From positions 1 through 33,828 of the forward strand of contig JAOAAG010000169.1 in NCBI GenBank assembly GCA_026418995.1: a DNA stretch of 33,828 nt, read 5' to 3'. Within the stretch, counting starts at the first letter, position 1. Every line of letters starts with the position of its first letter. Below, one piece after another: positions 11,511 to 17,451 of the stretch. Source of the DNA: Anaerolineae bacterium. Lineage in GTDB: Bacteria > Chloroflexota > Anaerolineae > B4-G1. The notes beneath the pieces were generated by a model, which worked only from the letters and a program-made list of their open reading frames with translations, had not been told where the DNA came from and did no database searches. Position numbers and translations under genes: made by a program.

Positions 11511-11539
11511 ATTTTATCACGATAATCGAAATTTTGCAA
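11511..11539 (-). promoter_or_regulatory. Promoter of the Lrp/AsnC - aminotransferase transcript
   Basis: Minus-strand -35 TTGCAA (11534-11539), 17-bp spacer, -10 TAAAAT (11511-11516) preceded by TGA (extended -10). The surrounding 11490-11560 is unusually AT-rich, which suits an Lrp-type operator, though no specific site was identified. The remaining gap to lgt (11560-11720) shows no gene. Confidence 0.65.
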
Positions 11540-11723
11540 CTGTTTTTCTTCGTTTTTCGCATCCAGATGAGACGCCGGTTGGCTCAACAGTATCGGGGCG
11601 CGCTGGGCGTGTGGCTCAGGCGACAGGCGTTCCCTGGTGACGTCCGTTTCGTCGCGCAGTGTACGCCCGATGGTCCTGGGGGCAGCCGATGTGCTTCTCT
11701 TGTGGTGGTTTACATGCGCAGCG

Positions 11724-11752
11724 TTGGATATTCAAACTGTTCGTGGTATAAT
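11724..11752 (+). promoter_or_regulatory. Promoter of lgt
   Basis: -35 TTGGAT (11724-11729), 17-bp spacer, perfect -10 TATAAT (11747-11752) preceded by TGG (extended -10). It lies 33 bp upstream of the lgt ATG, which rules out the longer in-frame start at 11534. Confidence 0.8.
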
Positions 11753-11785
11753 TTGGCTGTTCTTAACTACACTCTGGAGGAGAGG

Positions 11786-12667
11786 ATGAGACCGCCTGTT
11801 GACCCCATTTTAATCCACATCACTCCCAACTTCGGTATCCACTGGTACGGCGTGCTGATCGTGATCGGTGTGATGCTGGGGGCTGTTTACGCCTCCAGGC
11901 GGGCGAGGGAAGATGGCGAGAACCCTGACCATGTCTGGAATGCGCTGGTCATCGCCATCATTCTGGCGATCATCGGGGCCCGTCTTTACCATGTCTTCTC
12001 CGAGCCAGCCGGGGGGATGGTGGGCTGGAGCTATTACCGCAAGCATCCCGGCGAGATCTTCAAAATCTGGCGTGGGGGCTTAGGCATTTATGGCGCGATC
12101 GCCGGTGGCATCCTGGGGGTAGTGATCTATGCCTGGCGTGCCCGGCTGCGCCCGCTCCAATGGCTCGACTACGGAGCGCCAGGCCTGGCCCTGGGCCAGT
12201 TTATTGGCCGATGGGGCAACTTTATCAACCAGGAGCTGTACGGCCCGCCGACCACTCTGCCCTGGGGATTGATTATTGACCCGCCGCATCGTATCGCCCC
12301 GTACAATGATCTGACCCTCTACCCACCTGAGACACGCTTTCATCCCACCTTCCTGTATGAGTCGCTGTGGTGTTTGCTTGTGTTCGTTGTCCTGGCGACG
12401 ATAGCACGCAAGCTCAAGGGGCGGCTGCTGGAGGGTGATATCCTGCTGGGCTATATTATTGGTTACCCGTTGGGTCGCTTCTTCATTGAGTATTTGCGCC
12501 CCGATGCCTGGATGATCGGCCCCATCGCGGCGGCCCAGTTGTTCGCCATCTTCTGCGTGGTGGGTGGCACCGCTTTGCTGGTCGTCAGGCACCTCAGAGC
12601 ACGCCGCCTGCAGACCGTCACGGTAACAGTGGAAGCACCCGAGTCAACCGCGGGTGCGGAAGAGTGA
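11786..12667 (+). CDS. lgt: Prolipoprotein diacylglyceryl transferase
   Basis: A 293-residue inner-membrane enzyme. It transfers diacylglycerol from phosphatidylglycerol to the lipobox cysteine of prolipoproteins, the first step of lipoprotein maturation. About seven membrane helices are visible. The Lgt signature GRWGNFINQE begins at about residue 141, preceded by the GGLGIYGAIAGG loop and followed by HPTFLYESLW; GDILLGYIIGYPLGRFFIEYLR is near the C-terminal end. The start at 11786 is fixed by GGAGGAGAGG upstream, by the promoter at 11724-11752 and by the family N-terminus (PVDPILIHI...IHWYGVLI). The last 25 or so residues are a Thr/Val/Glu tail. A hairpin follows, then the C4 zinc-ribbon gene. 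Confidence 0.96.
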   Translation: MRPPVDPILIHITPNFGIHWYGVLIVIGVMLGAVYASRRAREDGENPDHVWNALVIAIILAIIGARLYHVFSEPAGGMVGWSYYRKHPGEIFKIWRGGLGIYGAIAGGILGVVIYAWRARLRPLQWLDYGAPGLALGQFIGRWGNFINQELYGPPTTLPWGLIIDPPHRIAPYNDLTLYPPETRFHPTFLYESLWCLLVFVVLATIARKLKGRLLEGDILLGYIIGYPLGRFFIEYLRPDAWMIGPIAAAQLFAIFCVVGGTALLVVRHLRARRLQTVTVTVEAPESTAGAEE

Positions 12668-12680
12668 GGGCTATGGTGTA

Positions 12681-12712
12681 CCCTGCCGCGGGTTTGCTAA
12701 CCTGCGGCAGGG
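12681..12712 (+). promoter_or_regulatory. Hairpin overlapping the ribosome site of the C4 zinc-ribbon gene
   Basis: Arms CCCTGCCGC (12681-12689) and GCGGCAGGG (12704-12712) pair over 9 bp, with an inner GGTT/AACC extension. No T-tract follows on either strand. The 3' arm runs into the GGTGAG that serves as the likely ribosome site, so folding could limit initiation of the next gene (inference). Confidence 0.5.
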
Positions 12713-12724
12713 TGAGTAGTGACA

Positions 12725-13426
12725 ATGATGAGCAGAGGGGAGTACCTCTACCGCCTTCAGTGTCTCGATAGCGAGGACGATGCCCGAAGGCGCCGTCTGA
12801 CAGAGGTGGAGGCTGCCCTGCGTGAGAGCGAGGCTCTCAAGGAAGCGCGGCGTTCGGTCGAGCATGCGCAGGCGCAGGTCAGGAAGTTGGCCGCACGCCA
12901 GCAGAGTCTGGAGTTGGAGCTTAAGGGGCTGGTGGACAAGCTGTCTGCCTCCGAGCAGCGCTTGTACAGCGGCGTGCTTAAAAATCCCAAGGAGATGGCG
13001 GACCTGGAGGCAGAAGTGGCCGCTCTCAACCGGCGCAGGCAAAAGCTGGAAGATGACCTTTTAGAGGCAATGATCGCGCGGGAAGAAGCGGAGGAAACGC
13101 TGAATAAGGCGCGGAAACACCTGGATCATCTCGAGGCAGACTGGTCAGCCAGGCAAGCGGAGCTAACGGCGGAGCAGCAAGCACTGCGACACCGCTTAGA
13201 AGAGCTCAGAGAGGCGCGCGAGGTGCTGCTTTCTGATATCTCACCGGGTGACCTGCAAGTATACCAGAATCTGAGGCGTAGAAAGGGAGGACTTGCTGTA
13301 GTGACCCTGCAAGGCGATGTCTGTGGCGGGTGTGGCATCGCCGTGTCGCCCAGTTTGAAGTGGCAATTGCGTCAGGAGGGGATCGGTTACTGCAGCCATT
13401 GTGAACGTATCATTGTGATGCAATAA
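12725..13426 (+). CDS. Coiled-coil C4-type zinc-ribbon protein (CT398-like)
   Basis: A 233-residue protein. Residues about 5-175 are a long charged coiled-coil hairpin of Glu/Arg/Leu heptads with the conserved turn around KNPKEMADLEAEVAALNRR. The C-terminal 50 residues form a C4 zinc ribbon: GDVCGGCGIAVSP and YCSHCERI. This architecture (CT398 / zf-RING_7 family) is widespread in bacteria. Its role is not established, although a link to flagellar, secretion or nucleic-acid machinery has been suggested. The start is taken as ATG 12725, eight bases after GGTGAG; GTG 12719 and ATG 12728 are alternatives. Its stop overlaps the shared terminator region of the convergent small RNA. Confidence 0.88.
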   Translation: MMSRGEYLYRLQCLDSEDDARRRRLTEVEAALRESEALKEARRSVEHAQAQVRKLAARQQSLELELKGLVDKLSASEQRLYSGVLKNPKEMADLEAEVAALNRRRQKLEDDLLEAMIAREEAEETLNKARKHLDHLEADWSARQAELTAEQQALRHRLEELREAREVLLSDISPGDLQVYQNLRRRKGGLAVVTLQGDVCGGCGIAVSPSLKWQLRQEGIGYCSHCERIIVMQ

Positions 13427-13462
13427 AAGTCGCAACCTCCCTGGGGCGGGGAGGTTGCGACT
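13424..13462 (-). terminator. Intrinsic terminator of the small RNA
   Basis: Read on the minus strand, a 13-bp stem AGTCGCAACCTCC (13462-13450) with GGAGGTTGCGACT (13440-13428) and a 9-nt loop is followed by TTTATTG. On the plus strand the same hairpin lacks a T-tract, so it is directional, though it may still protect the 3' end of the zinc-ribbon mRNA, whose stop lies at 13424-13426. Confidence 0.82.
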
Positions 13463-13522
13463 CTGCGAAAGGAGGGTAACCACTTTTGGGGGGTTAGGGC
13501 GGGTTCCAACCCCACTGTCCGC
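13424..13522 (-). ncRNA. Predicted small RNA with anti-Shine-Dalgarno-like segment
   Basis: No gene explains this interval, yet on the minus strand it has a complete small transcription unit: a consensus promoter (13528-13556), a start expected near 13520-13522, and an intrinsic terminator ending near 13424. The RNA would be about 95-100 nt. Its 5' part can fold as a hairpin (GGGGUU with AACCCC). A likely unpaired middle carries CCCUCCUUUCG (about 13467-13477), complementary to Shine-Dalgarno sequences and like the 3' end of 16S rRNA. The 3' part is the terminator hairpin. This 5' hairpin, open C-rich seed, 3' terminator layout is typical of trans-acting regulatory RNAs. It converges on the C4 zinc-ribbon gene. 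I do not recognise it as a named family. Confidence 0.6.
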
Positions 13523-13527
13523 TACCC

Positions 13528-13556
13528 ATTCTAGCGCACTCATATGCTCATGTCAA
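13528..13556 (-). promoter_or_regulatory. Consensus promoter of the small RNA
   Basis: Minus-strand -35 TTGACA (13551-13556, perfect), 17-bp spacer, -10 TAGAAT (13528-13533, 5 of 6). This is the best-matching promoter in the window and it points at no protein gene. Confidence 0.8.
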
Positions 13557-13641
13557 TAGTACTTGTGTACCACTTGGGGGCTGGGGGCTCGTCTGAGCGC
13601 TCATACCCTTTCGATTCCAGCGGTTTTCACCCCATAAAGTG

Positions 13642-15351: not shown

Positions 15352-17451
15352 ATGGCGATATTTTCATCTACCGTTTTCCTCTCTGCATTTCTGCTCTTTC
15401 TCGTGCAGCCACTGATCAGCAAGTATATTCTGCCATGGTTTGGTGGGGCACCAGCAGTCTGGTCGAGCGCGATGCTCTTTTTCCAGACACTGCTGCTGGC
15501 TGGCTATAGTTACAGCCATGGCCTCGCGGCACGTCTCCCGTTGCGGGTTCAGGGCCGTGTCCACCTGGGGTTGCTGGGGCTCTCGCTGGTCGTGTTCCTG
15601 CTGTGCTCCTTCATCTGGCAGACGCCCATCACACCGGGGGCGGAGTGGCAGCCGCGCCCTGAGGACGATCCTATTGTGCGTATCCTGACTGTCCTGGCAG
15701 TCAGTGTCGGCCTCCCCTATCTGACCCTGACGACGACTGGGCCGCTGCTGCAGGCATGGTTTAGCCGGGTGTGGCCGGGGCGCTCTCCGTATCGGCTATA
15801 CGCGCTGTCGAACGTTGGCTCGTTACTGGCCCTCGTCTGTTACCCGGTGCTTATCGAGCCGCTGTTCACGGTACGGGTGCAGGCGATGCTCTGGTCGGCG
15901 GGCTACCTGCTCTTTGTGTTGAACTGTGGGTATCTCGCCCGACGGCTTATGCGTCTGCCACGCCAGGTGGACCATCCCTCGCTCCAGAGCATTGAGCGGC
16001 CTGCCGCAGAGGGCGGCGGGAGCCTGAAACACTGGCCGCTGTGGTTGGGCCTTTCGGCATGCGCCTCGCTGCTGTTGCTGGCCACTACTAACCAGATGAC
16101 GCAGGACATCGCTGCGATACCTTTCCTGTGGGTGTTGCCATTAACGCTTTACCTGCTCTCGTTTATCCTCTGCTTCGCCGGCTCTCGCTGGTACTCACGC
16201 GGGTATGTCTACGGGCTGCTGGTGCTGAGCCTGCTCTACTGCTGGGTGCTGATCGCGCGGGCCACGCTGCATATCATTGTGCAACTGGCCGTCCATGCCC
16301 TGCTGCTCTTCTGTGTGTGCATGGTCTGTCATGGCGAGATGGTGCGCCTGCGGCCGCCTCCTGAGCATCTCACGGCCTTCTACCTGATCATCTCCCTGGG
16401 AGGCGCGCTGGGAAGTGTTTTCGTTAATCTGATCGCCCCGCTCATCTTCAACAATTTCTGGGAGTTGCCGCTCGGCCTGGTGCTCTGCTGGCTGCTCCTG
16501 CTGGCTGTGCTGGGGGTGGATCGCAGCCTGTTCCGACGCCGTCGAAGAGGACTTCCTCCTAATTGGGCTATGGCAGCCACGTTGGCCGCCGTGATCACGG
16601 TATCGCTCCTGTACGTGCAGACTTACAACCGGCGGACGCTCTATACCCACCGCAATTTCTACGGAGTGTTGTGGGTGGCCGAGAGGCCAATAGCGGGGAC
16701 AGGGGACTCGGTCTATGAGCTGGCGCATGGCGCGATTATGCACGGGGCACAGTACACTTCCGGCACCCATCGGCGCGAGCCCATCAGCTACTACAGGGCA
16801 GAAAGCGGCGGCGGATTGGCGTTGCGCCATTCCAGGCGCGATGCTGATGGCCTGCGCGTTGGGGTGCTCGGACTGGGCATTGGCACCCTGGCCGCCTACG
16901 GGCAACCCGGCGATATCTTTCGCTTCTACGAGATCAACCCCGCTGTCATCCGCCTGGCCGAGGGGGAGGGCGGTTATTTCAGCTACCTGGCCGATTCTCC
17001 GGCGCATGTGGAGATTGTGTCCGGCGACGGCCGGCTTGCCATGGCACGTGAGCTGGAGACAGAGGGCCCGCAGCACTACGATGTGCTGGTGCTGGATGCC
17101 TTCAGCGGCGACGCAGTCCCTGTGCATCTGTTGACCCGCGAAAGTTTCGCGCTCTATCTAAACCACCTGGCCCCGGACGGGGTGCTGGTGGTGAACATCA
17201 GTAACCGCCATCTTGACCTCCGGCCGGTCGTGGCGCGGCTGGCGGCTCACTTTGGCCTGCACGCGGCCCTGGTGGAGTCGCCCGGCGATGGGCGGGTATT
17301 TGTGAACTCGACGTGGGTACTGGCTACCCGCAATAAGGCTTTCCTGGAGCAACCGGAGGTCGCGCGCTACTGTCTCCCCCTTGTGGAAGATACGCGCATT
17401 CGGCTGTGGACGGATGACTACAGCAACCTGTTTCAGATATTATACTGGTGA
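15352..17451 (+). CDS. Membrane-fused spermidine-synthase-like protein
   Basis: A 699-residue fusion. The N-terminal 430 or so residues hold about ten or more membrane helices. After a soluble linker, residues about 490-690 form a class I methyltransferase-like fold of spermidine-synthase type: GVLGLGIGTLAAYG (SAM or dcSAM loop, about 503-516), FYEINPAVIRLA, VEIVSGDGRLAMA and YDVLVLDAFSGDAVPVHLLT. The spermidine synthase gatekeeper normally reads DGGDG; the region here is instead a membrane domain, as in the widespread fused family whose real reaction is mostly uncharacterised. GGAG lies five bases before the ATG. The upstream partner is the MFS gene; a PLP decarboxylase gene starts 134 bp downstream. 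Confidence 0.85.
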   Translation: MAIFSSTVFLSAFLLFLVQPLISKYILPWFGGAPAVWSSAMLFFQTLLLAGYSYSHGLAARLPLRVQGRVHLGLLGLSLVVFLLCSFIWQTPITPGAEWQPRPEDDPIVRILTVLAVSVGLPYLTLTTTGPLLQAWFSRVWPGRSPYRLYALSNVGSLLALVCYPVLIEPLFTVRVQAMLWSAGYLLFVLNCGYLARRLMRLPRQVDHPSLQSIERPAAEGGGSLKHWPLWLGLSACASLLLLATTNQMTQDIAAIPFLWVLPLTLYLLSFILCFAGSRWYSRGYVYGLLVLSLLYCWVLIARATLHIIVQLAVHALLLFCVCMVCHGEMVRLRPPPEHLTAFYLIISLGGALGSVFVNLIAPLIFNNFWELPLGLVLCWLLLLAVLGVDRSLFRRRRRGLPPNWAMAATLAAVITVSLLYVQTYNRRTLYTHRNFYGVLWVAERPIAGTGDSVYELAHGAIMHGAQYTSGTHRREPISYYRAESGGGLALRHSRRDADGLRVGVLGLGIGTLAAYGQPGDIFRFYEINPAVIRLAEGEGGYFSYLADSPAHVEIVSGDGRLAMARELETEGPQHYDVLVLDAFSGDAVPVHLLTRESFALYLNHLAPDGVLVVNISNRHLDLRPVVARLAAHFGLHAALVESPGDGRVFVNSTWVLATRNKAFLEQPEVARYCLPLVEDTRIRLWTDDYSNLFQILYW

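Follow-up and report, generated by a model that had tools for sequence, protein, structure and literature searches.

The minus strand of the window (the whole stretch of 33,828 nucleotides analysed here, one contig of a 3.85-Mb Anaerolineae assembly with 418 contigs) carries the predicted gene of a small RNA (sRNA), which belongs to a real, previously uncatalogued family of RNAs of about 100 nt in one order of Chloroflexota. The decisive point is that the promoter, the core segment and the terminator are kept in other genera and families, which is more than chance would produce. Judged on sequence alone, we showed that the locus is a standalone intergenic transcription unit, short and independent, with its own sigma-70-type promoter, an intrinsic terminator and no ORF.

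The features of the locus are listed in Table 1. A preliminary description of this DNA had claimed the minus-strand promoter with its 17-nt spacer, a GC-rich hairpin followed by a T-rich tail, and an RNA consisting of a 5' hairpin, an open stretch (CCCUCCUUUCG, positions 13476-13466) and a 3' terminator; all of these were found on the minus strand, and the open stretch sits within the larger conserved core. Two points had to be corrected: the 3' end of the sRNA overlaps the stop codon of the convergent CDS, and the conserved DNA upstream reaches beyond the -35 hexamer, to about position 13571. The description had overlooked two things: the loop of hairpin 1 holds another conserved C-rich element, and the sRNA has an upstream promoter element in common with the Flp pilin gene. 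The minus-strand promoter scored 11/12, the best of six sites within 9 kb; in shuffled sequence the mean number of promoter-like sites scoring at least 9/12 was 2.5, versus six in the real 9 kb. The predicted fold of the sRNA has an energy of -54.9 kcal/mol (z -5.7), to which the terminator contributes much.

Table 1. Predicted features of the sRNA locus and of the convergent gene (positions in the window)
Feature	Position	Strand	Remark
sRNA, predicted, about 99 nt	13424..13522	-	Ends inferred from promoter and terminator
-35 hexamer TTGACA	13551..13556	-	TTG part kept among homologues
-10 hexamer TAGAAT, 17-nt spacer	13528..13533	-	TAnnnT kept in homologues, spacing almost constant
Upstream promoter element GGTACACAAGTACTATTG, consensus RGTACnnnnKTMCYATTG	13554..13571	-	Runs into the -35; consensus over sRNA and pilin genes
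Hairpin 1, 8-bp stem	13489..13512	-	CCGCC-loop hairpin predicted in 22/26 homologues, stems differing
Hairpin 1 C-rich loop ACCCGCCC	13497..13504	-	CCGCC loop kept across families f1, f2 and f3
Near-invariant single-stranded core GUUACCCUCCUUUCG	13466..13480	-	Invariant columns in 26 homologues
Terminator hairpin	13429..13461	-	Compensatory changes at 13/14 pairs
U-rich tail TTTTATTG	13421..13428	-	Most homologues have a T-rich tail 3' of the stem
CT398-like coiled-coil / C4 zinc-ribbon protein gene	12719..13426	+	Pfam PF24481; convergent, outside the RNA

The earlier statement that the locus holds no protein frame of merit agrees with the comparison of 26 homologues, among which no ORF is conserved: a closed, ATG-started frame of at least 10 aa that starts before the core occurs in only four of them and any closed frame of at least 10 aa in seven, and there is no conserved frame or start codon. 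It is thus extremely unlikely that the RNA is a leader, an attenuator or the short mRNA of a small protein. The succession of promoter and terminator is also typical of attenuators, but in the convergent loci (18, see below) the gene 3' of the RNA lies on the other strand, therefore the RNA is not a leader there, and a small mRNA is at odds both with the frames just described and with the lengths of the homologues, whose differences are not divisible by three. Riboswitch, attenuator and small mRNA were all rejected on the layout and the ORF checks.

In the 26 homologues the unpaired core is invariant and the stems drift with compensation, a pattern typical of base-pairing sRNAs. The terminator helix is 99% paired and contains 103 compensatory cells; none of 500 shuffles matched it on any measure, and sliding the helix abolished the signal. 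In contrast to this heavily covarying stem, the CCCUCCUUUC core is nearly invariant. Its ACCCUCCUUUC segment and the GU flank are invariant or nearly so, and in 19 of the 26 predicted folds the core is unpaired with a mean probability of at least 0.5, so that the RNA has a conserved, exposed C-rich seed complementary to Shine-Dalgarno (SD) sequences. The stems of hairpin 1 differ between families and its CCGCC loop is presented in 22 of the 26 predicted folds; covariation in this hairpin is modest (two pairs changed on both sides, in a subset alignment with a bulged base removed from some rows). One genome, G006, has two extra short copies (L020, at G006:C307:1418, and L024, at G006:C149:23998), in which the promoter is followed directly by CAGTTACCCTCCTTTCGC and the terminator, and hairpin 1 is absent. 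These copies suggest that the core and the terminator form the minimal unit.

When 11 genomes of the same family were searched at the nucleotide level, a short core proved to be constant from genus to genus. The first covariance model, built from nine sequences, detected the RNA in 29 of the 48 genomes searched from this order; they represent 20 of 28 genera and belong to three families, and the E-values reach down to 6e-22. Nine of these 29 genomes carry training sequences and 20 do not. The sequence of the window (match at 13422-13525, E 1.8e-15) was in the training set, thus the evidence lies in the matches in the 20 genomes outside it. The check on relatives that had been proposed for the promoter and the CCUCCUUU segment had a positive outcome: three families of the order have kept both. 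A second covariance model, run on 396 genomes of the class, gave strong matches only within this order; outside it there were 12 weak matches, mostly limited to the 3' half. In the same sample the exact core, the 15-mer GTTACCCTCCTTTCG, is present in 20 genomes of the order and in three genomes outside it, the latter at chance level (three reversed-control hits). Relatives outside the order were rejected on these two results, and at this sensitivity the predicted RNA family is restricted to the order. In four loci from other families of the class (L066, L068, L071 and L072) CCTCCTTTCG- or ATCTCCTTTCG-type motifs stand just before a terminator hairpin; it is possible that these are remote relatives, or they arose by chance.

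That the RNA matches no known family, as previously claimed, was borne out by Rfam 15. At the gathering score the sole match in the whole window was a distant tRNA elsewhere, and eight related loci gave no match; with the limit relaxed to E<=10, the top bacterial family at the site was 6C (RF01066), with 19.8 bits (E 3.6) against a gathering threshold of 47. We found no description of a regulatory sRNA family or regulon in Chloroflexota in the open-access literature. Similar architectures are known from other phyla. In the alphaproteobacterial alpha-r14/NfeR1 RNAs ('cuckoo' RNAs) an ultraconserved CCUCC-type anti-SD motif is unpaired and the stems differ in sequence, and these RNAs block the initiation of translation, with ntrB as a target of the anti-SD seeds (PMC10746234). 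Our RNA resembles them as a standalone sRNA with a fixed unpaired anti-SD-type motif and drifting stems. It differs from them in the motif itself, since the identical CCUCCUCCC which they carry three times, in three hairpins, is absent and replaced by a single different core with ACCCUCCUUUC once, plus the CCGCC loop; the phylum is different as well, and Rfam-level similarity is absent. The C-rich loop of the mycobacterial B11 RNA represses envelope genes (PMC12395582). With 6C/B11 the RNA shares a length of about 90-100 nt, C-rich loops and a terminator hairpin, but the two hairpins with C6-type loops are missing: the hairpin 1 loop is the one given in Table 1, and the second stretch, ACCCUCCUUUC, which is the main C-rich one, is largely single-stranded between hairpins. 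By these comparisons the RNA is an analogue of alpha-r14/NfeR1 and 6C/B11, not a homologue. RsaE/RoxS, IsrR, sX13 and similar RNAs likewise use unpaired, C-rich seeds that target SD sequences. The seed of our RNA is of this kind, the differences being that there is no sequence match in Rfam and that promoters and phyla are not the same.

Upstream of the -35 hexamer, families f2 and f3 share the conserved block TAGTACTTTnTTCCYATTG, of which f1 has a related form. A search of the 48 genomes with the pattern GTACNNNNKTMCYATTG-N18-20-TANNNT, which includes the -10 hexamer, gave 69 hits versus a single hit with the reversed pattern used as control. Of these, 28 lie before the sRNA, 28 before Flp/Tad-type pilin genes and 13 before other or undetermined sequence. 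Most of the remaining hits stand before genes of secreted or surface proteins; they (L242-L249 and L252 among them) include, with names given by eye, subtilase-like secreted, CAP-domain-like, type IV prepilin-like and other surface proteins. The 3.85-Mb assembly to which the window belongs contains exactly two sites, one before the sRNA and one before the Flp pilin gene at G000:C25:15104. The pilin from the G030 locus scores above the curated cut-off of Pfam Flp_Fap (PF04964), the G000-type pilin below it. In G026, G027 and G030 the RNA is immediately preceded by the pilin gene, in the same orientation. Taken from these sequence patterns, there is strong evidence for co-regulation of the sRNA and the Flp pilin via the shared element, which would be either an activator site or the extended -35 region of an alternative sigma factor, and a surface regulon with a putative common regulator is apparent. 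The element is also present at pilin promoters in G022, G029, G032 and G034, where the sRNA was not detected, and this counts against the explanation that we favour below. Tad-type pilus genes have been reported in several filamentous Chloroflexota, most parts of the type IV pilus have not (PMC7332563). In genus g20 (L133-L135 and L148) a variant of the element, TATTACCTTTTTCCCATTG, precedes NUDIX-like genes (identified by eye) with a very short leader.

The sequence CCUCCUUUC within the core is the anti-SD of the 16S rRNA 3' end of order members, and the core equals their 16S 3' end GGAUCACCUCCUUUC at 12 of 15 bases in the same register (the anti-SD sequence is that of four other genomes of the order; the search for the 16S 3' end in the window's own assembly was negative). 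Conservation extends to the three differences, GGUUAC in place of GGAUCA. We consider it very unlikely that the RNA is a decoy which mimics the 16S 3' end, titrates a protein or a complex, and in this way sets translation or ribosome maturation globally. Such a role would agree with the identity at 12 bases in register, with a core as near-invariant as a protein site would be, and with the conserved mRNA partner that was looked for and not found, but the conserved differences are unexpected under plain mimicry, the second conserved C-rich loop fits base pairing, and abundant rRNA would compete with the product of a single-copy gene.

The preliminary description had also suggested that the open stretch could pair with many ribosome-binding sites. 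This holds in principle, but long matches are few: in a sample of 169 genes, taken from stretches of the same genome and not genome-wide, only four have a contiguous complementarity of at least 8 nt. The SD sequence of the genome's own pilin gene, AGAAAGGAGG, has a 9-nt contiguous match to the sRNA, and a longer one was seen in only one of 169 other sampled genes. The same SD sequence matches the 16S anti-SD over 14 nt, and the 16S match is the longer one in nearly all pilins examined. Total duplex energy does not single out the pilin leader, 78 of the 169 controls bind equally well, and the leader was therefore rejected as a standout in this respect. As the 16S match is longer and the duplex energy is not special, the pilin pairing may be no more than the effect of a strong SD sequence; direct regulation of the pilin by the predicted pairing is possible.

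Beyond the pilin, the complement of the core is matched with one mismatch at several sites 1-5 nt before start codons, for instance those of mscL-like, arsC-like and transaldolase-like genes (named by eye), and such SD matches differ between genomes. Within the order every occurrence of the exact 15-nt complement of the core is at a copy of the RNA gene, and 10-nt matches beside ATG ('AAGGAGGGTA...ATG', 24 genomes) are few, belonging mostly to unrelated proteins and mostly differing between genomes; on these grounds a conserved target with extended complementarity was rejected. In G028 (L098) and G029 (L099), where the sRNA was not detected, near-perfect complements of the core serve as SD sequences of aldehyde ferredoxin oxidoreductase-like and biotinyl-domain-like genes (named by eye). 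Many C-rich sRNAs repress genes of metabolism and transporters. It is quite conceivable, if somewhat short of probable, that our RNA likewise represses genes unrelated to the pilus, such as those of metabolism or transporters, and that the shared promoter only times its expression with the surface programme. The one-mismatch matches at SDs of unrelated genes and a pilin pairing that does not exceed SD strength speak for such targets; the candidate sets, on the other hand, mostly vary from genome to genome. This possibility is a variant of our favoured explanation, differing from it in the targets and compatible with it.

The gene convergent with the RNA encodes a CT398-like protein with a probable C4 zinc ribbon, its relatives are found in Chloroflexi/Anaerolineae metagenome assemblies, and lgt lies behind it. 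Three families have the same arrangement of lgt, the CT398-like zinc-ribbon gene and the convergent sRNA (window 11534-13426; loci L028-L054). The zinc-ribbon gene and the RNA converge in 18 loci, which come from three families; this, together with the overlap of the RNA's 3' end and the stop codon of the gene here, would fit an action in cis, as an antisense RNA to, or a bidirectional terminator for, the zinc-ribbon gene and lgt. We regard this as highly unlikely: genus g16 and others have the RNA in another context or at a distance of 400-650 nt from the gene, the sequence of the gene-proximal stem varies and the invariant core does not overlap the gene, and the promoter element is common to the pilin. 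Antisense action on the zinc-ribbon gene as the sole role was rejected, because the RNA persists without that neighbour. Elsewhere in the window (15352-17451, plus strand) there is a gene for a 699-aa predicted membrane protein without a Pfam match at E<=0.01, whose C-terminal part resembles, by eye, a spermidine-synthase-type methyltransferase.

The reading of the preliminary description, a trans-acting sRNA of about 100 nt with a C-rich, SD-pairing seed, gains support from the conservation in three families and from the negative Rfam search. We think it likely that the RNA is a trans-acting sRNA of this type, which is co-expressed with a pilus regulon and blocks translation initiation on a limited set of mRNAs. 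A shared activator or an alternative sigma factor would turn on the sRNA, the pilin and a number of secreted or surface proteins. The predicted 5' hairpin presents the CCGCC loop, and the core is an exposed anti-SD-like stretch. Through these two C-rich elements the RNA would pair with purine-rich ribosome-binding sites, and 30S loading would be blocked on the limited set of mRNAs which have long GAAAGGAGG(G) SD sequences. The pilin mRNA may be among these targets, in which case the RNA would act as an incoherent feed-forward brake on pilin synthesis. A narrower scheme appears doubtful to us, namely a private two-promoter circuit with one putative regulator, whose sites in the window's own genome lie only before the Flp pilin and the sRNA genes, and with a seed that feeds back on pilin translation.

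The predicted RNA probably adjusts translation within a pilus and cell-surface programme. The family arrives with a structure, a taxonomic range and, which is unusual, a sequence-defined regulon which includes the pilin, so that its function is directly testable. With its seed, anti-SD-type seeds would have arisen independently in one more phylum, unrelated to the others. Chloroflexota of the class Anaerolineae are abundant filament and floc formers and are mostly uncultured. If the two-promoter circuit is true, it would be an incoherent feed-forward loop tuning the output of Tad-type pili in this largely uncultured phylum.
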